Assembly (NCBI RefSeq): GCF_011059105.1
Contig: NZ_JAALLS010000004.1
Location: forward strand, 124,001-188,000
Origin: Fodinibius halophilus
Lineage (GTDB): Bacteria > Bacteroidota > Rhodothermia > Balneolales > Balneolaceae
Direction of reading: 5' to 3'
DNA: 64,000 bases
In this document: piece by piece, positions 63 through 13,259 of the stretch
Position numbering within the stretch: position 1 is the first letter of the stretch
Layout of the letters: each line of letters opens with the position of its first letter
Made by a program: the position numbers and the translations under genes
Notes under the pieces: generated by a model
What the model was told of the DNA's origin: nothing
The model's input: only the letters and a program-made list of their open reading frames with translations
Databases searched by the model: none

Positions 63-461
63 CTACTCACTTTCAAAGCCACCATCCACCAGCTGCTGGT
101 AACCGCCTACATTATAGACATTCTTGAAGCCGTATTTTTTCATCAGCTTAAGAGACTTTCCGCTCCGGTTACCCGACCGACAATACAGGTAGTAGGTTTT
201 ATCTTTATCAAGTGAGTCGAGCTGAGCCTCAAACTCTCCGCTCAAATAATCATACTGATAATCAACTCTTGCAATATGACCCGCATCGTACTCTTCCTGG
301 GTTCGAACATCTATTACGATACCACCTTTCTGATCAAGTTCTTTTCGAAATTCACTGGGATCCAATCTGTTATCAGATGACGACGATTCATTGCCACATG
401 CTTGTAGCATCAAAAAGCCTAATAGAGCAACTAATCCGATCGAAACTATTCGTTTAATCAT
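63..461 (-). CDS. Rhodanese-domain lipoprotein
   Basis: A 132-residue exported sulfurtransferase-like protein. The N-terminus is a lipoprotein signal ending in LQAC (lipid Cys22). One rhodanese domain follows, with the conserved IDVRTQEEYDAGHI segment and the active-site loop CRSGNRSG, whose catalytic Cys is about residue 94. It should pass sulfane sulfur on the periplasmic side, anchored to a membrane. It is the last gene of the sulfur operon, 31 bases after a paralogous rhodanese gene whose catalytic domain is very similar, so tandem duplication is likely. The substrate cannot be read from the sequence; thiosulfate or persulfide is inferred from the neighbours. Confidence 0.88.
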   Translation of the reverse strand: MIKRIVSIGLVALLGFLMLQACGNESSSSDNRLDPSEFRKELDQKGGIVIDVRTQEEYDAGHIARVDYQYDYLSGEFEAQLDSLDKDKTYYLYCRSGNRSGKSLKLMKKYGFKNVYNVGGYQQLVDGGFESE

Positions 462-492: not shown

Positions 493-879
493 CTATTCTG
501 TTTCAAATCCAGCTTTTGCCAAATCCTGAAACCCTCCTACATTATACACATTTTCAAAGCCTTTTTTGTTCATAATGTGGGCTGCTTTTCCGCTTCTGTT
601 ACCCGATCGGCAATACAAAAAATAGGTCTCATTCTTATCCAGCTTATCTAACTGCTGTTGGAACTCCCCGGAGATAACATCAAAGTTATGATCTGCCTGC
701 TTTAGATGCCCCTGTTTATATTCATCAGCAGTACGTACATCAATAATAGTTCCGGATTCATTTTTCATTTTCTCTTTAAAACCCTCCGGTGAGAGCACCT
801 CTTGGGCATTTTTCTGGGAAAGATAAAAAAGGCCAAATGCCACTACTAAAAGTATAATTACTATTAACGCTGTATTCAT
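493..879 (-). CDS. Membrane-anchored rhodanese-domain protein
   Basis: 128 residues. A single N-terminal membrane segment (about residues 3-20, no lipobox) is followed by one rhodanese domain with IDVRTADEYKQGH and the catalytic loop CRSGNRSG (Cys about residue 90). It is a close paralogue of the downstream lipoprotein rhodanese but keeps a transmembrane anchor instead of a lipid anchor. The pair may work on one sulfur-relay step at two membrane positions. It belongs to the same minus-strand operon as the TauE exporter, the persulfide dioxygenase and the YeeE/YedE genes; the gap to the TauE gene is 93 bases. Confidence 0.88.
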   Translation of the reverse strand: MNTALIVIILLVVAFGLFYLSQKNAQEVLSPEGFKEKMKNESGTIIDVRTADEYKQGHLKQADHNFDVISGEFQQQLDKLDKNETYFLYCRSGNRSGKAAHIMNKKGFENVYNVGGFQDLAKAGFETE

Positions 880-972: not shown

Positions 973-1734
973 CTAAATATTCATATAGCTGATATAACCG
1001 CCCATCAGAATGAGAAATACGGCAAATCCTTTTTTTAATTTTTTGTTGGAAATCTTGCTGGATACTTTTTTTCCAACCAGACTGCCCACGGCACCAATCA
1101 AGCTAAACACAAGAATCAGTTCCCAGTTCATCGACATATCCAGCTCGGCCAACACCTCCACATATTTATAAAAGCCACTAAAGCTCTTCAGGGCAATAAT
1201 TAACAAGCTGGTGCCCACCGCCAGGCTCATGGGCAATCCGCCCAGCAGTACAAGTGCCGGAACAATAAGAAAACCGCCGCCGACCCCGACTAAACCTGTT
1301 AAGATTCCTACTGCCAAACCTTCAATGATAATTTTCCACCAGGCGTGGGTGACCTTTGGCTCACCGTCAATGTGAATGCGCTCCTTGTTATCTCTGAACA
1401 TCATAACGGCTGCTACAATCATCACAAGAGCAAACAGAAGCAGTTGAAAAGTGCCCGTCACATAACCGGCAATAATAGCTCCTCCATAGGTACCGGCCAT
1501 TCCCGGTAGCCCAAAAAGGATAACACTTCTCCAGTGCACCTGCTTCTTTAACGCATAGGGAATAAATCCTGCAAAGCTGATAGCCCCAACGATGCCGAGG
1601 GATTCTGCAATAGCTACTTTCTCGGGTTCATCGGCCAGATAAATAAGTACCGGGACCGTCAAAATTGAGCCGCCGGAACCCAACAGGCCCAGGGATAACC
1701 CAACCAGTAACGCCCCAATCCAAGATAAAATCAT
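973..1734 (-). CDS. TSUP-family sulfite/organosulfonate exporter (TauE/SafE type)
   Basis: A 253-residue polytopic membrane protein with about eight predicted helices in two homologous halves. Each half opens with the TSUP glycine-rich pattern: [18 protein letters not shown] near residue 20 and [20 protein letters not shown] near residue 150. TSUP proteins move small sulfur or carboxylic anions, often sulfite. Sitting directly downstream of a persulfide dioxygenase-like gene, whose family makes sulfite, it is best read as the sulfite exit route. Length fits the family. Substrate is inference from context. Confidence 0.88.
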
Positions 1735-1787: not shown

Positions 1788-3203
1788 TTATTGTGCAGCA
1801 GCTTTATCTTTTTTATCAGCGTACTTGTGCTCCCAGTTTTCGTAATCATCGTCAACCCATTGCACATCAAAGCCTTCTTTATCAAGCAGACCGCTTGCAT
1901 ACGAGGCACGTCCCCCTGCGGCACAATGGACCAGCAGCTGTTTATCTTTTGGTAGTTTGTCCAGCTCATCTGCAAGACGGGTGTGCGCAATATTTATCGC
2001 ATCCGGTAGATGGCCCTCCGCATATTCTGTTGCTTTCCGAACATCAAGTACAATACTATCATTAGCTTGCCGATGCTCTTCAACAGCATCAAAATCAATT
2101 GTCTCAATGGAAGTTAGAGATCCATCCCAATCACGCAACATCCGGGGTGTTACATACCCTTCGATGTTATCGAGACCTACGCGAATTAAATCGCGAACCG
2201 CTTCTTCCAGATTATCTTCTTCAATAACAAGATACAGATCCGCATCGGCATCGGCATAAGAACCGGCAATGGTATTAAAACTTCCGTTAAATACCGCCAG
2301 TAGAGATCCCTCCAGATGCCCTTCCATATACTCGGCAGCCTCCCGTGTATCCACAATAAGACCACCGGTATTTACTATTTCGGAAACACTCATTTTTGGG
2401 GGATTGGGAAGCGTACCCAACACTACGGGTCCTTCTTTATTTACTTTCTTCATCCGTCCAAAGTAAAGTGGCGGCTCGGGCTGCCCATCCAACACAAAAT
2501 CGACAAACTCATTTTCAGTAGTTGCTGCATTAAAGGCCGGGCTAAAGCGCAACTCATACCCTACCGTTGATTCCGGAACCGAACCGAGTGCCTTTCCACA
2601 GGCACTGCCCGAGCCGTGTGCAGGCCAAACCTGTAAGTATTCGGGCAAACTTTTAAACTGAACTACCGATTGATACAATGCCTTGGCGGCAGGCTTCATT
2701 GCCCCTTCTTGGCCGGCAGCAGTTTCCAGAAGGTCCGGGCGCCCGACATCACCGACAAATACAAAATCACCGGTCAATATTCCCATCGGCTCATCGGCCG
2801 CCGCGCCGTCAGTTAATAAAAAACTAACCGACTCAGGAGTATGACCCGGCGTATGGATAACATCAAACTTAATGTTGCCCAGGCTAAACGAATCACCATC
2901 CGTAACTAATTCATAATTGTAATCACTGTCTAAAAGCCACTCATACTTCCAATCCTTATCTCCTTCATCGGAGGCATAAACCGTTACTCCTCGCTCAGCA
3001 AACTCCCGCAAGCCCGACACATAATCCGCATGAATATGGGTATCTGTAGCAGCGGTAATGGTAAGCCCTTCACTTTCCGCTAATTCATAATATTGATCGA
3101 TATCTCGCATCGGATCTACAATAATGGCATCTCCCGATGCCTGACATCCAATGAGATACGAATACTGTGCTAACTTTTTATCAAATAACTGTTTAAAAAA
3201 CAT
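1788..3203 (-). CDS. MBL-fold persulfide dioxygenase-like protein with two rhodanese domains
   Basis: 471 residues in three parts. Residues about 1-245 form a metallo-beta-lactamase fold of the ETHE1/Blh type, with metal ligands visible in THIHADYVSG (His56, His58, Asp60), HTPGHTPES, GDVGRPD and VWPAHGSGSACG. A first rhodanese domain (about 265-360) lacks a catalytic Cys. A second (about 370-470) has the active loop HCAAGGRASYASG. The family oxidises glutathione or other low-molecular-weight persulfides to sulfite; the second rhodanese can transfer sulfane sulfur. It lies between thiosulfate-type transporters and a sulfite-type exporter, which fits that role. Confidence 0.9.
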   Translation of the reverse strand: MFFKQLFDKKLAQYSYLIGCQASGDAIIVDPMRDIDQYYELAESEGLTITAATDTHIHADYVSGLREFAERGVTVYASDEGDKDWKYEWLLDSDYNYELVTDGDSFSLGNIKFDVIHTPGHTPESVSFLLTDGAAADEPMGILTGDFVFVGDVGRPDLLETAAGQEGAMKPAAKALYQSVVQFKSLPEYLQVWPAHGSGSACGKALGSVPESTVGYELRFSPAFNAATTENEFVDFVLDGQPEPPLYFGRMKKVNKEGPVVLGTLPNPPKMSVSEIVNTGGLIVDTREAAEYMEGHLEGSLLAVFNGSFNTIAGSYADADADLYLVIEEDNLEEAVRDLIRVGLDNIEGYVTPRMLRDWDGSLTSIETIDFDAVEEHRQANDSIVLDVRKATEYAEGHLPDAINIAHTRLADELDKLPKDKQLLVHCAAGGRASYASGLLDKEGFDVQWVDDDYENWEHKYADKKDKAAAQ

Positions 3204-3262: not shown

Positions 3263-3685
3263 TCAATGCGGCAGCCTTGGACGTAATAATCCATATACCC
3301 ATGTGCCCAATATAGCGCTGACGATAGGCACGATCATAATTTCATACCCGGCTCCGGCCAAGGTGAATAGCGGACCCGGACAAGCACCCGTTAGGGCCCA
3401 ACCGATACCAAATAACGTTCCTCCGGCCAAGTATCGTACTACCTGTGATGAATCCTTCGGCGGAATGGTGATAGGCGTACCGGTACTATCTTTGAGCTCC
3501 CACTTTTTTATCAGTTGAATTGAAATCATCGCTACTATAATAGCTGACCCGATAATACCGTACATGTGAAAAGCATCGAACCGAAACATCTCTTGTATTC
3601 GGAACCATGAGATAACTTCGGACTTGACCAATACAAAACCAAAGAACAGTCCGGCAAGTAAGTATTTAAGATAATTCTTCAACAT
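3263..3685 (-). CDS. YeeE/YedE-family membrane protein, second half (DUF6691 type)
   Basis: A 140-residue membrane protein with about four helices. It carries the family signature GGTLFGIGWALTGACPGPLFTLAGAG with the conserved Cys in TGACPGP. YeeE/YedE (TsuA) proteins take up thiosulfate or other sulfane-sulfur species through conserved cysteines. Here the transporter is split over two genes: this short one and the 186-residue gene 27 bases upstream, a common arrangement in sulfide-oxidising bacteria. The two polypeptides probably assemble together. The exact cargo is not shown by the sequence. Confidence 0.87.
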   Translation of the reverse strand: MLKNYLKYLLAGLFFGFVLVKSEVISWFRIQEMFRFDAFHMYGIIGSAIIVAMISIQLIKKWELKDSTGTPITIPPKDSSQVVRYLAGGTLFGIGWALTGACPGPLFTLAGAGYEIMIVPIVSAILGTWVYGLLRPRLPH

Positions 3686-3712: not shown

Positions 3713-4273
3713 TTAAAGTATCAGTGGAAAGATCACATGGGTGATAAACAGGCCACCGATAAAGAAGCCTATCACTGCCAGCAGGGAGGCCAGTTGTAAA
3801 TTTGAAATACCGGTGATCGCATGACCCGAGGTACAGCCCCCGGCATAGCGAGCACCAAATCCAACAAAAAAGCCACCTATAACCATAACAATAAGGCCAT
3901 TAACCGTGCTAAGACTTTCCCAACTAAATAATTCATTCGGCATCATGCCGGTGAAATCTGATATCCCGAGAAACTGCAACTCTTTTACCGTTTGCTGTGA
4001 CAGATCTATGGGCTCGGGATTATTAAAAACCCAACCGGCCAAAAAACCACCAATTACAGTACCACTAATAAAAATCAGGTTCCAGAGTCCTTTCTCTTTC
4101 CAGTTGTATCGAAAGAACTCAATTTTCCCCGGCATACAAGCGGCACAAACGTGACGCAGGTTTGATGAGACTCCAAATGTTTTACTACCCAATAAAAGTA
4201 ATACCGGTACAATCAACCCAATCATGGGCCCGGCTATATACCACGGCCAGGGTTGCTGTAATAGTTCTAGCAT
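3713..4273 (-). CDS. YeeE/YedE-family membrane protein, first half
   Basis: A 186-residue membrane protein, first gene of the sulfur operon. About four to five helices are visible. It has the conserved motif GFGARYAGGCTSGHAITG near residue 145 with the family Cys, plus a second Cys pair in RHVCAACMPGKIEF around residue 40. YeeE/YedE proteins import thiosulfate-like sulfur compounds. It pairs with the 140-residue YeeE/YedE gene directly downstream. The ATG lies about 54 bases from a clear Bacteroidota-type promoter at 4327-4357. Confidence 0.87.
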   Translation of the reverse strand: MLELLQQPWPWYIAGPMIGLIVPVLLLLGSKTFGVSSNLRHVCAACMPGKIEFFRYNWKEKGLWNLIFISGTVIGGFLAGWVFNNPEPIDLSQQTVKELQFLGISDFTGMMPNELFSWESLSTVNGLIVMVIGGFFVGFGARYAGGCTSGHAITGISNLQLASLLAVIGFFIGGLFITHVIFPLIL

Positions 4274-4326: not shown

Positions 4327-4357
4327 CAAAAGTAGCGCATTGACGCCAGCCTGTCAA
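4327..4357 (-). promoter_or_regulatory. Promoter of the sulfur operon
   Basis: Read on the minus strand: TTGACA (4352-4357), a 17-base spacer, then TACTTTTG (4327-4334). This matches the Bacteroidota -33 TTG / -7 TAnnTTTG pattern exactly. It directly precedes the YeeE/YedE gene starting at 4273. Confidence 0.7.
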
Positions 4358-4369
4358 TACAAGTATGCA
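4352..4369. promoter_or_regulatory. Candidate GntR operator half-site over the -35
   Basis: The plus-strand stretch TGTCAATACAAGTATGCA overlaps the -35 of the sulfur promoter. Its AATACAAG core is also present at the -35 of the DUF302/RND operon (12024-12031), and AATACAA forms the left arm of the palindrome before the GntR gene (12129-12143). Binding by the GntR/UTRA protein is inferred. Confidence 0.45.
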
Positions 4370-5050
4370 CAAATAATCTTTGATATCTCAAAGCAATCAA
4401 AATAGATCTCCTACTTAACATCAATAGCGGGAGCGTCCCGCTCGTACTATATTACACCACGCCTGCTATCGACTTCGGCAAGGAGGATATTTATGATTTA
4501 AAATTCAGTCGCTGAACTCCCCGTCTTACTAACACCCCTCCCGCTTCGCGGCACTCCCCTCGAGGGGAGATAAAAGGTAGTATATATAATGATATTGCTT
4601 TTAACTTTTAACCCAACGGCTGTAATGCTGTTACTAACTCAATCTTCTCAAAATGAAGTCTCCCTCCATGCCTGCAGGGAGGGAACAAGGGTGGGTCAGC
4701 CGAGCACGAGCAGAACGACGTGGCAATCTCCCAGAATCGATTAGTTGATGTGTAAAGGGGTGCTCTTCAGATACTATGTAAGCTAAAAAAAGGAGACTGC
4801 CGCGGTCTTCCGGAAAATCGCCGGAATCCCTCGCAGTGACACTGCTTTTATTTTTAAAAGCAACATTGGCATTAGCACAAAAAAATGCCAAATAAACAGA
4901 TGATATTTCTCAGCCGGTCAATTTTTTCTGGTTCCGATGCTCTGCGTCGGAACCAGATAAAGCGATACGCTTGCGCGATGAGGAATTTGTACTGCGAAGG
5001 CATCGCGGCAGAGCTACAATACACCCTTCAGCCACACCCCCATTTTCCAG
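4370..5050. repeat. Gene-free stretch rich in palindromic repeats
   Basis: No convincing gene lies in this stretch. It holds several repeat pieces: a REP-like hairpin (4424-4450, core GCGGGA-GCG-TCCCGC), a CCCCTCGAGGGG-type palindrome near 4555, a 46-base repeat unit (4655-4700) with a second copy at 34870-34914, and a hairpin with 11-base perfect arms TCTGGTTCCGA/TCGGAACCAGA (4927-4957). It separates the sulfur operon from the end of the RND operon, both read leftward. Confidence 0.6.
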
Positions 5051-5054
5051 GAAT

Positions 5055-5312
5055 TCATGAGAGAGAATTAGATTGGGAATCTGCCTCTTTCTCAACACCT
5101 ATTCCCACCTTGGCCAATATCTGTTCGGCCAGGCACCAATTAGTAAATGAGGATTGAAATAAATTTAACCCTACAAACAGGGTAAATAAAAACCAGTACG
5201 GACTCATAAAGTAACCCAGGATTACACTGATCGTTACAAAAGCACCCGCCAATCGGCGAATGACTTTTTCCATGGGCCGCATGATGCTACAACTTTGATT
5301 CGATTGATTCAT
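5055..5312 (-). CDS. DUF2892 (YgaP-type) inner membrane protein
   Basis: An 85-residue protein with two membrane segments and the DUF2892 pattern (MEKVIRRLAGAFVTISVILG, then the second helix LFTLFVGLNLFQSSFTNWCL). In E. coli YgaP this module is fused to a rhodanese, and DUF2892 proteins are commonly linked to sulfur genes. It is the last gene of the DUF302/TolC/RND operon. A second DUF2892 gene follows the GntR regulator at 13059, which ties the two ends of the region together. The molecular role of DUF2892 is unknown. Confidence 0.8.
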   Translation of the reverse strand: MNQSNQSCSIMRPMEKVIRRLAGAFVTISVILGYFMSPYWFLFTLFVGLNLFQSSFTNWCLAEQILAKVGIGVEKEADSQSNSLS

Positions 5313-5348
5313 TATTTATTACTTTTAATTAATTATAAATTAGTGCGA

Positions 5349-5660
5349 CTATACTGCTTTATCCACATTAAGCGAATATGCATGCAGTGGATTTTGTTTT
5401 TCTGCACCAGTCTCTTTGTTATACGCTTTTACTTCATCGATAACTCGCTTCACACACTCCTCATTCTGGATGGAGAAAAACAGCGATGAATAGACACCGT
5501 GGTCGCCGCCCGCAAACCAGTTTGTGATCTCCGGCTGATGTTTATCGGTTCGAAAACCGTGCACCTCGGTTTCGCTGTAAATTGGTACCTTCTGTCGTGC
5601 TAAAATCTTGCGAACGTCATCGGTGTATTCTTCGATACTAAGTATGATTAATAACTTCAT
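5349..5660 (-). CDS. Small PII/CutA-like protein linked to RND pump
   Basis: About 103 residues, starting MKLLIILSIEEYTDDVRKIL. The ATG at 5660 is preferred over an upstream GTG at 5690 because the protein then opens directly with the first beta strand. The strand-helix-strand layout and size suggest a ferredoxin-like PII/CutA fold, as in small proteins encoded next to metal RND pumps. No classical T-loop or TGxPGDG motif is present. It lies 77 bases after the RND pump gene and before the DUF2892 gene. Assignment rests on size, predicted fold and context. A ligand-sensing or pump-modulating role is a guess. Confidence 0.6.
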   Translation of the reverse strand: MKLLIILSIEEYTDDVRKILARQKVPIYSETEVHGFRTDKHQPEITNWFAGGDHGVYSSLFFSIQNEECVKRVIDEVKAYNKETGAEKQNPLHAYSLNVDKAV

Positions 5661-5737
5661 AATGTGATGTTTTTGTTTATTGATATTCACGACCGGCTAT
5701 CACAATCTCCATACCCGGCTCTGACACCTGCTTAAGC

Positions 5738-8700
5738 TTACGTTTGTTCTCCTTTGAGTTCCTTCACTTTGTTCTCTACCATAAAGTAGATCAGCGGTAC
5801 CATCACGAGCGTAAGTGCTGTTGATGCCACGGCTCCCCCCATCAACGAAATCGCCAATCCCTGAAAAATGGGATCAAACAATATTACTACTGCACCAATC
5901 ACAACGGTACCGGCAGTAAGGATAATAGGCATACTTCGCACGGCCCCGGCTTCGATAACCGCTTGTTTAAGCGGTTCACCATCGTCAAGCCGTATATTGA
6001 TAAAGTCGATTAATAACACGGAGTTACGCACCATAATACCGGCCAGGGCAATCATACCAATCATAGATGTGGCCGTAAAGAAGGCGCCCAACACCCAGTG
6101 ACCCACGAGGATACCGATCAACGAAAGCGGGATAGCAATCATCATAATAATAGGCACTTTGAAATCCTGGAACCATCCGATGATCAGCATGTATATGATC
6201 ACCAGCACAATGGCAAAAGCAATTCCCAAATCACGGAATACTTCGTAGGTAATCTGCCATTCGCCGTCCCATTTCAGGGTATAGTCCTCTGTCATAAACG
6301 GCTGTCCGGCAAAGATCTGTGATAGATTATAGCCTTTGGGCATATCAATATTATCGATCTCTTCGCCGGTGTCGAGCAAGGCATAAACCGGACTTTCAAT
6401 TTCACCGGCAACTTCAGCCAGCACATACGTTACGCGCCGTTGGTTTTTGCGATGGATACTGGATTCGAGTGTATCTTTGCTCATAGTCACCAGATCAGCT
6501 ACAGGTATCATCGTCCCTGCCGCCGATTTCATATGCAACTGTTTAAGTTTTTCGATATCAGAGCGATCAGCCTTGGGCAACTTCACCGTGATAGACACAT
6601 CGTTCAGTTCAGTTTCGCTATAAAGACGTGATACATCCTTTCCACGAAGCGCCATCGTTACGGTCTGCACCACCTGCTTGGATGAGATACCCGACATCAT
6701 TGCTTTTTCGGTGTTTACATCCAGCTTGTACTTAGTCTGCGGTGCTTCGACCATCCAGTCTACATCGACGATACCTTCCGTTTTTTCGAAAATATCTTTC
6801 ACCTGACTACCGACCCGCTTACGCCCATCGGTATCGGGACCGTAAACTTCAGCTACAATCGTAGATTGTACCGGCGGTCCGGGGGGCACCTCAACAACTT
6901 TGACGTTGGCGTTATATTTTTCGCCCACCTTTTGAACCATGGGACGCAACCGTTTGGCAATAGCGTGACTTTGATCGCTTCGCTCTCCTTTATCGATCAG
7001 GTTCAGCTGGATATCCGCCACATTAGATCCTTTTCGCAGGTCGTAATGTCGTACAAGCCCGTTAAAATTAATAGGCGCATTATCACCGGCATAAATCTGG
7101 TAGTCCTTAATTTCAGGCACATCCTTTAAACTTAAGCCCACTTCTCGAGCAACCGCATTGGTCCGCTCCAGCGTAGTGCCTTCCGGCATATCAATGATAA
7201 GCTGCACCTCATTTTTATTATCGAACGGTAACATTTTCACCTCTACCATTCGGAAGATGAACAATAGCATAGAAGCAAACAGCAACACTGTTACTCCACC
7301 GATAAACATCCAGCGTTTAGAGATACTTTCCAGCAGCGGATTCATCGTACGCTCATACCATTTATAAATGAATGTTTCTTTAAGGTCATACTCTTTGTCC
7401 TCTCCATGTTCATCTTTCTCTGTATTACCGTGTGGCAGTAGAATGTAAGCCAACCACGGAGTAATAATAAGAGCAACAATCAAAGAAAAAATCATCGCCA
7501 GCGAAGCACCTATTGGCATGGGACTCATATAAGGGCCCATCAATCCCGATACAAAAGCCATTGGCAATACCGCCGAAATCACGGTAAATGTTGCCAATAT
7601 AGTTGGATTCCCGACCTCGCTGATCGAGGCAATAGCTGCCTGTTTGAGCGGGAGTTTCTTCATCTTAAAGTGCCTGTGCATGTTCTCGGCGATAATAATG
7701 GAGTCATCGACCACAATACCCGTCACAAAAACCAGCGCAAAGAGTGTAATCCGGTTTAGGGTATAGCCAAACATGTAATACAGAAAGAGGGTAAGCGCAA
7801 AGGTTACCGGCACCGACAGGAATACAACTAATCCACCGCGCCAGCCCAATGCAAGAGCCACAACAAAAGTCACAGCCAAAATAGCAACCAGCAAATGCTC
7901 AAGGAGCGATAATACCTTGGCTGAAGCGGTCTCCCCATAATTTCGAGTAGTAGTAACATTTACATCAGCCGGAATTAAGCTACCATCAAGCTTGTCTACT
8001 TTTCTTTCAATCTGCTCGGCGATATTCATTGCATCTGCACCGGACCGTTTGGCTACAGAAATGGTCACCGCGGGATATGATTCACCCGCATTTAGGCCAG
8101 ACTGTTGAGCTTTTTGATGGCCAACCCCGTACGACACATATTCCGAGGGCTCCTCCGGCCCGTCACGGATCTCAGCGATGCTGTGCAAATAGATCGGATC
8201 TCCATTTTGTACATCTACAACAACGTTCCGCACTTCTTCGGCGGATTTAAAAAAGTCTCCGGTATCTACCAAGTACTCGGTATCGTTATTGCTAAATGAT
8301 CCGGACGAAAGCTCTTGGTTTGCTGCCTGTATTTGTCCGACCACCTGCATCGGGTCTATACCATAAGAGGTCATTTTATTCTTGTCCAGATTCACCGCGA
8401 CCTGTCGGGTACGTCCGCCGTGGATATCGGTCTGCGCCACATCCTCGATCTGTTTGATATCCAAGGCCATTTCATCGGCCACCCGGCGCAAATCAAAATC
8501 GCTGTATTTATCGCTCCATAATGTCAATGTCATTATTGGAACATCATCGATGGAACGGGTTTTAACCATGGGTTGGGTCGCCCCCTCTGGAAAGCGATCC
8601 ATATTTTTCATGATCTCATTATAGAGACGAACCAGACTGCGCTCTACATCTTCACCAACGTAAAATCGCGCCGATACCATCGCCTGGTCGGGCATGGATG

Positions 8701-8962
8701 TGGAATATACATATTCTACGCCTTCAATATTTGAGAGTACCTTCTCCAGCGGTATTGCAATACGTTTTTCCACTTCCTCTGGCGTTGCCCCGGGATAGCC
8801 CACAAAAATATCGGCCATCGGCACATCAATTTGCGGTTCTTCTTCGCGCGGAGTCAGATACGTTCCGTAAAAACCCAGCGCCAGAAACACAATCATCAAC
8901 AAGGGCGTCAACTTTGAGTCGATAAACCCTTGCGCTACTTTTCCTGCAATTCCAGTTTTCAT
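5738..8962 (-). CDS. RND efflux pump, AcrB-type inner-membrane subunit
   Basis: 1074 residues with the RND layout: helix 1 at about 15-33, a large periplasmic domain, helices 2-7 around 350-530, a second porter domain, and helices 8-12 at the end. The proton-relay segment GIVVDDSIIIAENMHRH near residue 415 keeps the two Asp of helix 4. The N-terminal motif TPREEEPQIDVPMADIFVGYPGATPEEVE marks a subfamily distinct from drug-type AcrB and from CusA. With its adaptor and TolC in the same operon it should form a full tripartite pump. The operon also encodes DUF302 and DUF2892 proteins and shares promoter architecture with the sulfur operon, so a sulfur-related cargo is possible but unproven. Confidence 0.92.
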   Translation of the reverse strand: MKTGIAGKVAQGFIDSKLTPLLMIVFLALGFYGTYLTPREEEPQIDVPMADIFVGYPGATPEEVEKRIAIPLEKVLSNIEGVEYVYSTSMPDQAMVSARFYVGEDVERSLVRLYNEIMKNMDRFPEGATQPMVKTRSIDDVPIMTLTLWSDKYSDFDLRRVADEMALDIKQIEDVAQTDIHGGRTRQVAVNLDKNKMTSYGIDPMQVVGQIQAANQELSSGSFSNNDTEYLVDTGDFFKSAEEVRNVVVDVQNGDPIYLHSIAEIRDGPEEPSEYVSYGVGHQKAQQSGLNAGESYPAVTISVAKRSGADAMNIAEQIERKVDKLDGSLIPADVNVTTTRNYGETASAKVLSLLEHLLVAILAVTFVVALALGWRGGLVVFLSVPVTFALTLFLYYMFGYTLNRITLFALVFVTGIVVDDSIIIAENMHRHFKMKKLPLKQAAIASISEVGNPTILATFTVISAVLPMAFVSGLMGPYMSPMPIGASLAMIFSLIVALIITPWLAYILLPHGNTEKDEHGEDKEYDLKETFIYKWYERTMNPLLESISKRWMFIGGVTVLLFASMLLFIFRMVEVKMLPFDNKNEVQLIIDMPEGTTLERTNAVAREVGLSLKDVPEIKDYQIYAGDNAPINFNGLVRHYDLRKGSNVADIQLNLIDKGERSDQSHAIAKRLRPMVQKVGEKYNANVKVVEVPPGPPVQSTIVAEVYGPDTDGRKRVGSQVKDIFEKTEGIVDVDWMVEAPQTKYKLDVNTEKAMMSGISSKQVVQTVTMALRGKDVSRLYSETELNDVSITVKLPKADRSDIEKLKQLHMKSAAGTMIPVADLVTMSKDTLESSIHRKNQRRVTYVLAEVAGEIESPVYALLDTGEEIDNIDMPKGYNLSQIFAGQPFMTEDYTLKWDGEWQITYEVFRDLGIAFAIVLVIIYMLIIGWFQDFKVPIIMMIAIPLSLIGILVGHWVLGAFFTATSMIGMIALAGIMVRNSVLLIDFINIRLDDGEPLKQAVIEAGAVRSMPIILTAGTVVIGAVVILFDPIFQGLAISLMGGAVASTALTLVMVPLIYFMVENKVKELKGEQT

Positions 8963-8987
8963 AATGGTATTACTAAATAATTTGTAT

Positions 8988-10082
8988 TTACTGCGTACTT
9001 ACTTTTCGACCTTCGCGTAGCGGCTGATCAATCGAAGCCACATACAACTCACCTTCCGATAAGCCCGATAAAATTTCTATACCGTTAGCACTTTCATCGC
9101 CAAGACGAACCCAGCGAAGTACTATCTCCGAGTTATCATTCAGCGTATATAAACCGGTCAGTTGTCCACGTTCAACAATGGCAGACTTAGGCACGACGAT
9201 TGCTCGATCACCCTCCGTTACCAAACCGACCTGGGCAAACATCCCAGACTTTATGCCTGAATCCTTGTCCAACTCCGGCAACATCACCTCAACAGCAAAC
9301 TGTCGGCTACCGCGATTACCGGCCTGGTTAATGCTTTTAACCACTCCAATACCATCGTTGTAGCCGACTGCTTTTATATCTACTGAAACGGTATCATCAT
9401 AACTGAATAATGAAATATTACTCTCGGGAACCGTTATATTCACTTTCATTATCCCCTCCTGTTCAAGAGCAATAATAGGTTGTCCCGGTGAGGCCATATC
9501 TCCTTCCGAAACCATCTTTGAGATCACATAACCGTTAAAAGGTGCCGTTAACCTGGTATAGTCGAGCATGTCTTCCACTTCCTGAAGCTTACTCTCCAGC
9601 ATTTGCACTTTGGCCTTGGCCATCTCGTACTGCGTGGAAATATCATCCAGCTCCTTTTGAGTAGCACTTTCCTGCTCATACAGATTCTTAATACGGTTAT
9701 AATTGGTCTCCGTATTACTCAGGGCCGCCTTTGCTTCAATTAAACTTGATTCAACCTGATTCATCTGTGCCTGCAGATTGTCATCTTTAATCTGAATCAA
9801 CACATCCCCCTTGCTGACGTAATCCCCTTCTTCAACTTCCAGCTGGGCGATACGTCCCATCACTTTGGTACTCATGTTGATTGTACGATCACTGCTTACC
9901 GTCCCGGAAAAGCGGTGTGATGCCGTTCCCTGCACATATTCTGCAGTTTGTGTATCTACCGTTATAGGTTGATCTTCTGCGGGCTTCTCACTTTCAGAAG
10001 AGCTGCACGAAATCCCCACCAACATTAGCACTGCAAGTGCCGATAATAGTCTTCCTGATATATTCATAATTCTATATTTCAT
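8988..10082 (-). CDS. RND periplasmic adaptor (HlyD/MFP family), lipoprotein
   Basis: 364 residues. The lipoprotein signal ends near GISCSSS. Then come the lipoyl/barrel-sandwich half-motif (VMGRIAQLEVEEGDYVSKGD around residue 80), a long coiled-coil hairpin (about 100-175), the second lipoyl half (LTAPFNGYVISKMVSEGD near 180), a beta-barrel domain and a membrane-proximal domain ending REGRKVSTQ. It bridges the RND pump and the TolC channel encoded on either side, with gaps of 25 and 38 bases. Family and role are clear; cargo is not. Confidence 0.92.
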   Translation of the reverse strand: MKYRIMNISGRLLSALAVLMLVGISCSSSESEKPAEDQPITVDTQTAEYVQGTASHRFSGTVSSDRTINMSTKVMGRIAQLEVEEGDYVSKGDVLIQIKDDNLQAQMNQVESSLIEAKAALSNTETNYNRIKNLYEQESATQKELDDISTQYEMAKAKVQMLESKLQEVEDMLDYTRLTAPFNGYVISKMVSEGDMASPGQPIIALEQEGIMKVNITVPESNISLFSYDDTVSVDIKAVGYNDGIGVVKSINQAGNRGSRQFAVEVMLPELDKDSGIKSGMFAQVGLVTEGDRAIVVPKSAIVERGQLTGLYTLNDNSEIVLRWVRLGDESANGIEILSGLSEGELYVASIDQPLREGRKVSTQ

Positions 10083-10120
10083 TGTTCTATTTGTTTTGTT
10101 GTTAAAATCTTATGAGAAAA

Positions 10121-11485
10121 TTAGTAGGGCATTTCACGCTCAAGCAGCAACTCCAATGTTGCCACACTTAAATTGTATTGATAGAGTGCATTTAATCGCT
10201 GCAGTTTACTTTGGAGCAGCTTGGTTTCAGCCTGTAGCAGATCAGTCGTTTTTTCCATCCCCTGCTCATAACGATTATTCCGGATACGAAAATCTTCATC
10301 TGCCTGCTCTACTGATGCCTCAGCAAATTTGAGTTGTTCCTGCGCCTGACCAAGTGAGCGTTGGGCCTGCTGAATCTCCATCTTATTCTTGAAAAGACTA
10401 CTTTCGTAAGCCAACTCGGCCTTTTTGTACTGGGCTTTGGATTCCATAACCTTGCCTACATTTTTGAACCCTTTAAACAGATCCCACTTTAGCGTAGCCC
10501 CAATCATATAACTGTCGCCCTGCGTACCGAAGAGCACTTCATCATTAAATTCGTAGCTGCCAAACAGGTTTATACTGGGGACAAAATTGAACTTTGAGGA
10601 TCGCTGCATCTCTTTCGCAGCCGACATCCGGTACTTCATAGCCTCAATTTTAGCATTCGTTGTATTCTCAGGATCAATCATATCATCCGAAATGCCAGGG
10701 CGCATCTGCAGGCTGTCTGTAGCTACAATCCTGATATCCTCATCGATATTCAGCAAATAGCGAAAATTATCTTGTACGGTTTTTCGCTGATCTCGAACCT
10801 TTGACTGCCTGCTTTTGAGCTCTAACACGCGGACTTTCGCTGCCAAATAATCGGCCTTATTAATCATATCCTGTTCGTAATAGTTCTTGGCCTGACGTTC
10901 ATTTTCGCGTGCCATTTCAAGCGACTTCGTAATAACCTGATCCTGCTTCTCCATTAACTGAAGCTGGTAATAGGTATCTTTCACTTGGTAGCGGACATGC
11001 TGAATAGTCCCTTCCATCTGCTTTTTTGCGGCTTCCAACTGATTTTTAACCGCCCTGCGCTGAAAAATCGCATCCGCATTAAAAAGCGGTTGTTGCGCCT
11101 TAAAAGTAGTAGTAAAGTTATCGTAGACATCGGGGTCGTTTAGCCGTGTTGGATTAAAATCGGCCTGTGTTACCGCTTCCTGCTTTAACTTAAACCCGAA
11201 AACATTCAGCGGATCATTCGTTGAGATACCTGTCTCCTCTATAGAAAGCTGCGGCAAAAATACAGCATTGGTCTGCCGATACTGTGAGCGGACCATCTCC
11301 ATATCGGCCTCCGCCATTCGAATCTCAAAGCTGGCCTCTTCGGTAATGGCAAGCGCTTCCTGAAGATTTATCTCCCGAATATTCGGTGTATCATTAGCAT
11401 TAGACTGTGCCAGTACCGACTGAGTAATAAAAAGTAACAGTACTGCAAAGAGCGGCCAGACTTTATTTATTCTTTGAATTTTCAT
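10121..11485 (-). CDS. TolC-family outer-membrane efflux channel
   Basis: About 454 residues, starting MKIQRINKVW at the ATG 11485; a GTG two codons upstream is possible. A signal peptide ends at VLAQ. Two repeated TolC halves of long alpha-helices follow (about 45-230 and 250-450), with the typical pattern of helical barrels and NxxRYEQGMEKTTDLLQAET near the end. It is the outer-membrane exit of the RND pump. It lies between the DUF302 gene (91 bases upstream) and the adaptor gene (38 bases downstream). Confidence 0.9.
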   Translation of the reverse strand: MKIQRINKVWPLFAVLLLFITQSVLAQSNANDTPNIREINLQEALAITEEASFEIRMAEADMEMVRSQYRQTNAVFLPQLSIEETGISTNDPLNVFGFKLKQEAVTQADFNPTRLNDPDVYDNFTTTFKAQQPLFNADAIFQRRAVKNQLEAAKKQMEGTIQHVRYQVKDTYYQLQLMEKQDQVITKSLEMARENERQAKNYYEQDMINKADYLAAKVRVLELKSRQSKVRDQRKTVQDNFRYLLNIDEDIRIVATDSLQMRPGISDDMIDPENTTNAKIEAMKYRMSAAKEMQRSSKFNFVPSINLFGSYEFNDEVLFGTQGDSYMIGATLKWDLFKGFKNVGKVMESKAQYKKAELAYESSLFKNKMEIQQAQRSLGQAQEQLKFAEASVEQADEDFRIRNNRYEQGMEKTTDLLQAETKLLQSKLQRLNALYQYNLSVATLELLLEREMPY

Positions 11486-11576
11486 TTTCACTTATTGTTG
11501 GTTAAATATTTCTGTGTCCACTTATTCGCAATCGCAAGTTCCCATAACTAATTACATTGCGAAATAGGAGATACCC

Positions 11577-11963
11577 CTACAGCCTATCAATTACTTTTTG
11601 CAAGCTTGAACGAACTTGATCCGCAATAGGATGTAGCCCCTCATTTTCTACGGCTTGCATAGAAGCTACCGGATTAACAGCCGACACCTCTACTTGACCG
11701 TCGTCATGTTCTTCGACAATTACATTACAAGGAAGCATTACTCCTATTTTGTCTTCGGCAGTTAACGCTTTGTGGGCAAACTCAGGATTGCAAGCACCCA
11801 AGATGCGGTACTTCTTAAAGTCCACATCCAGCTTTTTCTTAAGTGTTTCCTTCACATCGATCTCGGTAAGTATTCCAAAACCCTCTTCTTGCAGAAGTCC
11901 TGTGATCGTTTCAATTGCTTCTTCAAATGATCCGTCAATATTCTTTGCGTAAAAGTATTCCAT
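11577..11963 (-). CDS. DUF302-domain protein
   Basis: 128 residues, no signal peptide. It has the DUF302 hallmark sequence around residues 20-100: EGFGILTEIDVKETLKKKL, then the conserved YRILGACNPEFAHKAL with its Cys, then LPCNVIVEEHDDGQVEVS with a second Cys. DUF302 is a small alpha/beta homodimer of unknown function that often occurs in sulfur-oxidation and metal-stress operons. This is the first gene of the RND operon, 32 bases from its promoter. The two conserved Cys could carry sulfur or bind a metal; that is inference. Confidence 0.88.
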   Translation of the reverse strand: MEYFYAKNIDGSFEEAIETITGLLQEEGFGILTEIDVKETLKKKLDVDFKKYRILGACNPEFAHKALTAEDKIGVMLPCNVIVEEHDDGQVEVSAVNPVASMQAVENEGLHPIADQVRSSLQKVIDRL

Positions 11964-11994
11964 AACTGTATTGGTTGGTTTGATTTATCTGGCA

Positions 11995-12025
11995 TCAATA
12001 TAGCCACCCCCGCCCTACTTGTCAA
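11995..12025 (-). promoter_or_regulatory. Promoter of the DUF302-TolC-RND operon
   Basis: Minus-strand TTGACA (12020-12025), a 17-base spacer, then TATATTGA (11995-12002), close to TAnnTTTG. Spacing and -35 are identical to the sulfur operon promoter at 4327-4357. Confidence 0.65.
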
Positions 12026-12038
12026 TACAAGTTAATAC
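12019..12038. promoter_or_regulatory. Candidate GntR operator over the -35
   Basis: The plus-strand stretch TTGTCAATACAAGTTAATAC contains AATACAAG (12024-12031), shared with the operator candidate at 4356-4363, and an imperfect inverted repeat TTGT-CAAT-ACAA. It covers the -35 hexamer, a repressor-like position. Confidence 0.5.
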
Positions 12039-12128
12039 ATATTAGTAATATTTCCGATATACACAATCTATATGGCCTTAAAATCGGCTTAATTACACTA
12101 TAATGCCCTATTTCAAGCAATACAACAC

Positions 12129-12143
12129 AATACAACTTGTATT
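12129..12143. promoter_or_regulatory. Perfect palindrome upstream of the GntR gene (autoregulatory operator candidate)
   Basis: AATACAACTTGTATT is a perfect 15-base palindrome (AATACAA-C-TTGTATT), 70 bases before the GntR start. Its TTG at 12138 can serve as a -33 element with TAGTTTTT about 19 bases past the hexamer. The left arm AATACAA is shared with the two operon operators. Confidence 0.55.
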
Positions 12144-12212
12144 AACAGGTATTTGTCTGAATAGTTTTTATTCAGTAGATTAGTATCAAAAGAAATTGCA
12201 GAAGATCTACCT

Positions 12213-13016
12213 ATGGACTTAAAAGAAGGAATTCCGTTACACAAACAGATTAGCGACTGGATTAAGAATCAAATTGAAAGGGGAACGCTTGAAGAAAACG
12301 AAAAGCTACCCTCCGAAAATGAACTCAGTAATAAGTTCGATGTTAGTCGAGTAACCGTTCGACGGGCATTACAAACTTTGGAAAACGATCAGCTTATTTA
12401 TCGTTGCCAGGGCCTTGGCTCTTTTGTTACTGATCAGCGCACCCATCAGTCATTTTCCATTTTAAATGATTTCACCGAAGAACTGGCCGGCTCGGGATTA
12501 AAACCGAGCTCAAAACTGATCTCTTTTGAGCAACAAGATATATCTGGACAAAAAGATTTACTCTCATACCTGGGAATTCAGAATAAAGAGATAGCCGTAA
12601 AAATTGAGCGTGTTCGTCTTGGTGATAATTCGCCCATTGCCTATGACATAACCTGGATGCCGGTCTTTTACGGCCAACTCATTGAAAGCTATGACCTGGA
12701 GCAAACAACCATTTTCGCTATCCTGGAAGAAGAGTTCGATATCCCCATAGAAAGAGGATGCTATCGTATTGAAGCGACCTTAGCCGATGAAACATTGGCC
12801 CAACACCTGCAGGTAGATCAACAAACACCCCTATTGCAGATTAATCGAATATCGTACACTATTGGTGACAAGCCGGTTTATTTTCAAAAACGGTTCTATC
12901 GAAATGACAAAATGGTATTTGAACTTATGGCCGAACGCCATAAAGAATCTACCGGCGATAATAGCGAAGTTTTAGCCTCGAAAGAGTTTACTCCTGTTTT
13001 TCGTGATAGCAACTAA
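12213..13016 (+). CDS. GntR-family transcriptional regulator with UTRA domain (HutC subfamily)
   Basis: 267 residues. An N-terminal winged helix-turn-helix (about 5-72) has the GntR signature IPLHKQISDWIKNQI...LPSENELSNKFDVSRVTVRRAL. A C-terminal UTRA effector domain follows (about 90-240; ITWMPVFYGQLIESYDLEQ and PLLQINRISYTIGDKPVYFQKRFYR). Such proteins are usually repressors released by a small ligand. The gene diverges from the DUF302/RND operon, and its promoter carries a palindrome whose half-site recurs at that operon and at the sulfur operon. It is therefore the likely regulator of both. The effector is unknown. Confidence 0.9.
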   Translation: MDLKEGIPLHKQISDWIKNQIERGTLEENEKLPSENELSNKFDVSRVTVRRALQTLENDQLIYRCQGLGSFVTDQRTHQSFSILNDFTEELAGSGLKPSSKLISFEQQDISGQKDLLSYLGIQNKEIAVKIERVRLGDNSPIAYDITWMPVFYGQLIESYDLEQTTIFAILEEEFDIPIERGCYRIEATLADETLAQHLQVDQQTPLLQINRISYTIGDKPVYFQKRFYRNDKMVFELMAERHKESTGDNSEVLASKEFTPVFRDSN

Positions 13017-13058: not shown

Positions 13059-13259
13059 ATGAAGAAGAACATGGGCACCCTAGATCGCGTTATTCGAACA
13101 CTCTTAGCCTTATTGGTAGGTGTATTATACTTTACCAATATCATCTCCGGAACTACTGCTGTGATACTGGGCGTTCTCGCTTTGGTCTTTTTATTAACAA
13201 GTTTAATTAGCACCTGCCCGCTGTATATCCCATTCGGGCTCTCAACAAAAAAGGACTAG
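13059..13259 (+). CDS. DUF2892 small membrane protein
   Basis: 66 residues with two hydrophobic helices. It opens with the DUF2892 pattern MKKNMGTLDRVIRTLLALLVGVLYF and ends LISTCPLYIPFGLSTKK, with the TCPLYxPxG motif typical of the family. Such proteins are often found with rhodaneses and DUF302. It follows the GntR gene by 42 bases, is probably cotranscribed with it, and is closed by a strong terminator at 13286. It is a second, divergent DUF2892 copy relative to the one at 5055. Confidence 0.85.
   Translation: MKKNMGTLDRVIRTLLALLVGVLYFTNIISGTTAVILGVLALVFLLTSLISTCPLYIPFGLSTKKD

Follow-up and report, generated by a model that had tools for sequence, protein, structure and literature searches.

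A GntR/UTRA protein as the probable repressor of a reactive-sulfur regulon in Fodinibius halophilus

The window analyzed here, a stretch of 64,000 nucleotides of the Fodinibius halophilus contig NZ_JAALLS010000004.1 (positions 124,001 to 188,000), carries two operons on the minus strand and a divergent gene, gntR, which encodes a protein of 267 residues with GntR and UTRA domains (Table 1). The first operon codes for a YeeE/YedE pair, a persulfide-dioxygenase-like protein (PDO), a TauE/SafE-type permease, and two rhodanese-like proteins. The second codes for a DUF302 protein and a tripartite RND pump. We propose that, in this group of halophilic bacteria, the GntR protein is an autoregulated repressor of the GntR/HutC type that would control both operons, as a reactive-sulfur regulon, through a dyad of 16 bp, ACTTGTnnnnACAAGT. 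Judging from sequence and comparative data, we give this reading a probability of about 0.77. What appears to be new is the regulator family in this role, as the sulfur regulon itself is already known.

Table 1. Genes and operator-like sites of the cluster (window coordinates)
Feature	Position	Strand	Remarks
Rhodanese-like protein	63..461	-	Pfam PF00581
Rhodanese-like protein	493..879	-	Pfam PF00581
TauE/SafE-type permease (sulfite exporter family)	973..1734	-	Pfam PF01925
Metallo-beta-lactamase + rhodanese protein, persulfide-dioxygenase-like (PDO)	1788..3203	-	Pfam PF00753, PF00581
YeeE/YedE half, DUF6691	3263..3685	-	Pfam PF20398, PF04143; presumably PmpB-like
YeeE/YedE half; sulfur operon gene 1	3713..4273	-	Pfam PF04143; presumably PmpA-like
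Operator-like site, sulfur operon, ACTTGTATTGACAGGC	4349..4364	-	over -35 TTGACA 4352-4357; -10-like TACTTT 4329-4334
YgaP-like transmembrane protein (DUF2892)	5055..5312	-	Pfam PF11127
Small conserved protein, pump operon	5349..5660	-	no Pfam or NCBIfam match
RND pump permease	5738..8962	-	Pfam PF00873
RND periplasmic adaptor	8988..10082	-	TIGR01730
TolC-like outer membrane efflux protein	10121..11491	-	Pfam PF02321
DUF302 protein; pump operon gene 1	11577..11963	-	Pfam PF03625
Operator-like site, DUF302-RND operon, perfect dyad ACTTGTATTGACAAGT	12017..12032	-	over -35 TTGACA 12020-12025; -10-like TATATT 11997-12002
Palindrome of the first-pass annotation, AATACAACTTGTATT	12129..12143	.	overlaps the dyad; little conserved
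Operator-like site 5' of gntR, ACTTGTATTAACAGGT	12135..12150	+	78 bases ahead of the start codon
GntR/UTRA (HutC-type) regulator, 267 aa	12213..13016	+	Pfam PF00392, PF07702
YgaP-like transmembrane protein (DUF2892), immediately 3' of gntR	13059..13259	+	Pfam PF11127

The two operons have the same promoter plan, as a first-pass annotation of this DNA had claimed: a TTGACA hexamer, 17 bases, and a -10-like element, which is TACTTT(TG) 5' of the YeeE pair and TATATT(G) in front of the DUF302 gene. The 8-mer AATACAAG, said by the same annotation to overlap the -35, does so in both promoters (exact at 4356-4363 and 12024-12031). We rejected it as an operator, since it is poorly conserved and its frequency in the window is at chance level (83 matches with at most one mismatch, against 73 +/- 8 expected). 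The annotation had also pointed to a palindrome, AATACAA-C-TTGTATT, at the promoter of gntR. This is indeed perfect, but as an operator it fares poorly: with at most one mismatch it lies 5' of gntR in 6 of the 88 loci linked to sulfur or pump genes, whereas the dyad does so in 80, and in the window, at up to three mismatches, its 8 matches do not exceed the 6.9 +/- 2.7 expected by chance. Also set aside were AATACAAnTTGTATT, which is poorly conserved and no more frequent in the window than expected by chance, and the 12-mer CTTGTATTRACA, which is less specific, with 35 sites in 12 genomes of the genus against 10 in the reversed control. It is the 16-bp dyad, rather than the palindrome, that is likely to be the operator.

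Aligned upstream regions of the relatives show the dyad ACTTGTATTRACAAGT as the conserved element. In the window it has no mismatch before the DUF302 gene, one before gntR, and two before the sulfur operon. The string CTTGTATTRACARG has three exact matches in the whole genome of 4,192,514 bases, and these precede the two operons and gntR (the reversed control has none). With up to two mismatches, the dyad occurs at seven places in the genome: the three sites of the cluster and four others, all within open reading frames. According to the first-pass annotation, a motif equally frequent at unrelated promoters would speak against a common regulon; this is the case for the 8-mer but not for the full dyad.

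To assess the conservation of the gene neighborhood and of the dyad, we used 168 loci, dropped one that was too short (L170), and collapsed those at least 95% identical, resulting in 121 non-redundant loci. A first set of relatives comprised 40 fetched of the 41 non-self matches of at least 195 bits (G048 lies near a contig end, and the broken fragments of G033 were left out). The closest named relatives of the GntR protein belong to Aliifodinibius/Fodinibius. Sulfur or pump genes were found in 39 of these 40 loci, whose stretches span 6.7-20 kb, the exception being L051. Using a distance of 8 kb from gntR to define linkage, 88 of the 121 loci are linked to such genes, and in 78 of them the closest of these genes lies upstream of gntR in divergent orientation. 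When the whole stored stretches of the 121 loci are considered, sulfur genes without pump genes are present in 71, pump genes without sulfur genes in 5, both sets in 13, and neither in 32. Of the 13 loci with both sets, eleven comprise the window together with its near relatives L034-L043; the two others, L071 and L073, belong to a remote clade.

Among the 88 linked loci, the dyad ACWTGTnnnnACAWGT is found 5' of gntR in perfect form in 68, and with at most one mismatch in 80. The controls give far lower values. Forty permuted dyads searched in the same loci result in a mean of 0 perfect sites (maximum 0) and of 0.4 with at most one mismatch (maximum 3). Random 460-base stretches of these loci contain it in 1 (perfect) and 8 (at most one mismatch) of 1386 cases, and shuffled regions in 0 and 8 of 1760. 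A search with at most one mismatch in 58 relatives retrieved 50 sites, against 9 for the reversed control, of which 38 are at gntR clusters. Of the remaining 12, seven lie inside open reading frames, one is intergenic without an open reading frame of 90 aa close by, one precedes a YeeE-YeeE-PDO operon in G012, on a contig without a match to gntR, and one precedes a DUF302 gene in G038. These two sites provide an independent check on the regulon. The last two, in G038 and G041, are perfect dyads in the gap between genes of a CitMHS/TrkA_C permease and an Na/Pi cotransporter (L240, around 7061, and L241, around 7146; Pfam assignment for L240 only).

The protein itself fits the GntR/HutC family, with a GntR winged helix (PF00392, E 7e-19) and a UTRA domain (PF07702, E 3e-31), and its fold matches include NagR, DasR, and PhnF. 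Among its matches to NCBIfam GntR equivalogs, such as HutC, PhnF, TreR, and LSA1692, none of the 25 listed of 28 attains its own cut-off, the best, NF041547, scoring 145.6 bits for a cut-off of 275. Among the closest known systems are NagR (YvoA; 4u0v, Z 22.5 over 240 aligned residues) and, for the effector domain, DasR (4zsk, Z 22.9, root-mean-square deviation 1.7 over 164 aligned residues). The large deviation from NagR, 9.8, is probably due to the placement of the domains. The likeness extends to the -4/+4 spacing of the predicted operator dyad, the arginine that reads G-4, and the anion-binding arginines. NagR and DasR are regulators responding to amino-sugar phosphates, whereas the neighbors here are sulfur, pump, or cofactor genes rather than amino-sugar genes, a different residue stands in place of Arg38, and the pocket positions of Glu145, Glu222, Ala224, and Ser226 have changed to other, almost invariant residues, which places the protein outside the NagR/DasR group.

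The way NagR reads its operator may link the protein to the dyad. According to PMC4333415, Arg48 of NagR reads G-4, Arg38 reads G-5, and the wing contacts G-7. The equivalent of Arg48, R46, is invariant (121/121), and the dyad keeps a G at -4. The equivalent of Arg38 is N36 in 61 of the 121 proteins, and position -5 of the dyad is mostly T. The dyad accompanies 59 of the 61 proteins with N36 and 32 of the 60 others, in a count that ignores kinship. The candidate operator also shares a GT....AC core with that of NagR, 5'-GTGGTCTAGACCAC-3'. Taken with the NagR readout, the co-occurrence of N36 and the dyad suggests that the two may belong together.

The gene kinds in these clusters are those of a system that is known around another family of regulators. 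Cysteine-bearing ArsR proteins of the SqrR/BigR/SoxR/sHdrR kind lie near the same pdo, rhodanese, TauE, PmpAB/YeeE, and RND genes in the neighborhoods presented in PMC12423496 (2025). Those regulators are ArsR proteins of around 105 residues, in contrast with the unrelated 267-residue GntR/UTRA protein described here, which has no ArsR domain among its Pfam matches. Another persulfide-responsive regulator, CstR of Staphylococcus aureus, belongs to the CsoR family and controls the cst operon (PMC9774590); it differs by being an all-helical tetramer with dithiol sites, in a separate family. Plasmid relatives of the RND permease, 55 records in all, are mostly from Proteobacteria, with some from Cyanobacteria, among those listed; one from Flammeovirga has 61% identity and the other 29 listed have 39.5-47.4%. 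ArsR genes are near the pump in three of the six neighborhoods viewed, those of Paracoccus, Pseudanabaena, and Nitratireductor. In Paracoccus pantotrophus, a SqrR-like ArsR gene lies amid genes for a metallo-beta-lactamase, a YgaP-like transmembrane protein, DUF6691, a sulfurtransferase, DUF2892, the adaptor, and the RND permease. The best solved-structure match of the Paracoccus and Nitratireductor ArsR proteins is SqrR (E 1e-20 and 3e-23), while the sole Pseudanabaena protein examined is not clearly SqrR-like. Used as a query, the Nitratireductor protein has no match at E 1e-6 in the genome of the window and has matches in 30 of 58 relatives, the best being only 2.5e-12. Since ArsR genes are found near related pumps elsewhere and no such match is found in this genome, the GntR/UTRA protein seems to occupy the place of the ArsR protein, in agreement with the role that the first-pass annotation had proposed for it. 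In a literature search that covers subscription journals poorly, we met no account of persulfide, sulfide, or YeeE genes being regulated by a GntR/UTRA protein. The passages that mention GntR in PMC5480029, PMC8148161, PMC5178258, and PMC11267869 concern other matters; the last reports that Alvin_0098, a GntR-family gene, is around two-fold up in a pyrite culture.

Linkage, conservation of the operator, off-cluster sites, and ArsR neighborhoods thus make the predicted regulon, and the putative ArsR-type role of the GntR protein, well supported. The annotation's single regulon, covering gntR and both operons, is supported, but one regulator for the two operons is not universal, as some relatives carry two GntR copies, one per operon (in G011, L044 by the sulfur genes and L045 by the pump genes). 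From these data we infer binding, repression, and sulfur as the signal. A dimer of the regulator would bind the dyad and, because the dyad lies over the -35 of both operon promoters (YeeE-PDO-TauE-rhodanese and DUF302-RND), would keep RNA polymerase off; the arrangement is that of a presumptive polymerase-blocking repressor. The copy 5' of gntR would close a feedback loop. When reduced or partly oxidized sulfur compounds accumulate, a sulfur species would bind or modify the protein and shift its DNA-binding domains away. This would derepress together thiosulfate-type uptake, persulfide oxidation, sulfite export, the rhodaneses, and the pump. If this is correct, a reactive-sulfur regulon known around ArsR-type repressors is run by an unrelated family with a ligand pocket, and GntR in place of ArsR is a testable case of regulator replacement. 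The dyad would then be a tool to search the Balneolia and Rhodothermia, which are little studied, for sulfur genes, and the regulon would connect this RND pump, DUF302, and the YgaP-like membrane proteins with the handling of sulfur.

Several observations weigh against this proposal. The sulfur-operon site of the window is two mismatches off the dyad and its right half is poor, and in G005 (L038) no good site precedes the sulfur genes, the best in that gap having four mismatches. At three mismatches the dyad is not in excess in its own genome (84 sites, against 104 in the reversed control). It is also found 5' of gntR in 11 of the 33 unlinked loci, and part of its conservation may thus be mere autoregulation. 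The counts of dyads and linkage are not independent, because the loci are related, and sign tests corrected for the tree have no power and support no association. Finally, three of the six plasmid pump neighborhoods list no ArsR gene in the stretch viewed, for which the gene table is incomplete.

The nature of the signal is a distinct question, to which the unlinked members contribute. Within 8 kb, these 33 GntR genes have moeA in 10 cases (L151, L162, L173, L271-L273, L277, L278, L284, and L285), moaA in 4 (L268-L270 and L274), mobA in 5, of which four also have moeA, and an SQR-like gene in 5. In Methylacidiphilum (L147), the homologue adjoins a sulfite/nitrite reductase gene (10871-12595).

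We infer that the signal is most likely a small anion such as sulfite or thiosulfate in the UTRA pocket (R133, R135, and T166), with a cysteine switch as the main rival. The ligand switch, in which such an oxyanion (perhaps molybdate in the cofactor branch) moves the DNA-binding domains, is plausible, if somewhat short of an even chance. In NagR, as PMC4333415 describes, sugar phosphates drive the switch, the phosphate binders are R133, R135, and S165-I166-Y167, and Thr90 makes a fourth contact. Most of these are kept here (R133 and R135 in 121/121 each, and T166-I167-Y/F168), while the sugar-facing Glu145, Glu222, Ala224, and Ser226 are replaced by D145, Q225, and R227 (121/121 each) and Y223 (118/121). 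The same paper mentions a sulfate-bound NagR, which counts in favor of an oxyanion ligand. Going by the PDO and TauE families, sulfite should be produced and exported by the operon's own enzymes. A small oxyanion would connect this sulfite with the cofactor, sulfite-reductase, and SQR-like neighbors of the unlinked members, which give hints in the same direction. On the other hand, R133 and R135 may be a general trait of UTRA domains, the place of Thr90 is not conserved (position 88 has N, S, A, M, and others), and the SQR query, a broad Pyr_redox_2 protein, also matches 16 of the 88 linked loci.

The oxyanion ligand is slightly ahead of a thiol switch, in which Cys65 of the wing and Cys183 of the UTRA domain (or a cysteine at 189 or 196) would be persulfidated, or joined by a sulfane-sulfur bridge, with release of the DNA. 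We regard the latter as possible but doubtful. SqrR releases DNA through its two cysteines. In an AlphaFold2 model built from 69 sequences (the window and 68 of 80 contig loci; mean predicted local distance difference test score of 88), Cys65 is on the wing strand, Cys183 on a UTRA strand, and R133/R135 in the pocket. C65 is present in 59 of the 121 proteins, and a cysteine at 183, 189, or 196 accompanies it in 47 of these 59, against 2 of the 62 without C65. A separate clade of 20 sequences combines C39 with C213. Overall, six columns account for 159 of the 223 cysteines, while cysteines make up 0.2% of residues elsewhere. Of the 88 sequences with C39 or C65, 81 are sulfur-linked, compared with 7 of the 33 that have neither. 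However, L160, L264, L276, L280, and L048 are sulfur-linked without a cysteine at any of the six columns, C65 is also found in the MoaA-linked L269, L270, and L274, 12 of the 59 proteins with C65 have no cysteine at 183, 189, and 196, and here too the tests corrected for the tree lack power. As a sole explanation, the cysteine switch is set back by the linked members without cysteines and by this lack of power.

These elements can be put together in a broader, more tentative picture. The protein would belong to a new GntR/UTRA branch whose former sugar-phosphate pocket senses a sulfur oxyanion (sulfite or thiosulfate), replacing the thiol-based SqrR/BigR. It would control reactive-sulfur genes, the RND pump, and elsewhere sulfite reductase or molybdenum-cofactor genes, in Balneolia, Rhodothermia, and some Verrucomicrobia and Gemmatimonadota, and the cysteines would be a second thiol input in some lineages. 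We hold this to be possible, but less likely than not.

Two other accounts would do without a common regulon. The dyad could be the autoregulatory site of gntR alone, with the sulfur and pump operons as separately controlled neighbors, given that most dyads are in the gntR intergenic region and that a third of the unlinked loci have one as well (11/33). We consider this unlikely: the sulfur operon, around 7.8 kb off, has a -35 site of its own, as is the case in L034, L035, and L036 at the same position (2-3 mismatches), the sites lie over the -35 at a fixed spacing, and those of G012 and G038 are away from gntR and before sulfur or DUF302 genes. The string common to the promoters could also be a housekeeping element, a TTGACA -35 with an upstream box, given that TTGACA lies within 33 of the 87 dyads read away from gntR. 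This is very improbable: TTGACA is lacking in the other 54, the dyad is symmetric, and its copies with at most two mismatches in the genome are confined to the cluster and four sites inside genes. In 32 of the 33 dyads with TTGACA, a -10-like hexamer follows 16-18 bases on, according to a loose pattern used without a control.

Some features of the cluster deserve mention. A half-site (ATATGTATT or similar) is found ten bases, i.e., one helical turn, before the DUF302 operator in the window (12017-12042) and in L034-L041, and may represent a second binding register. A single long operon is suggested for L037 and L039-L042, where the sulfur genes come after the pump genes and lack a good site of their own. 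The PDO-like protein has a weak match to Blh (NF040641), far under the cut-off. The small protein of the pump operon had no relative in the PDB (best E 0.25), nor in Pfam or NCBIfam, and it is kept in the RND operon of 11 relatives with 51-87% identity. Between the YgaP-like gene and the YeeE operon lie 785 bases in the window and 331 in L034; in this gap, positions 4440-5050 contain pieces of dispersed repeats, with 52 matches in the genome, the stretch itself included.

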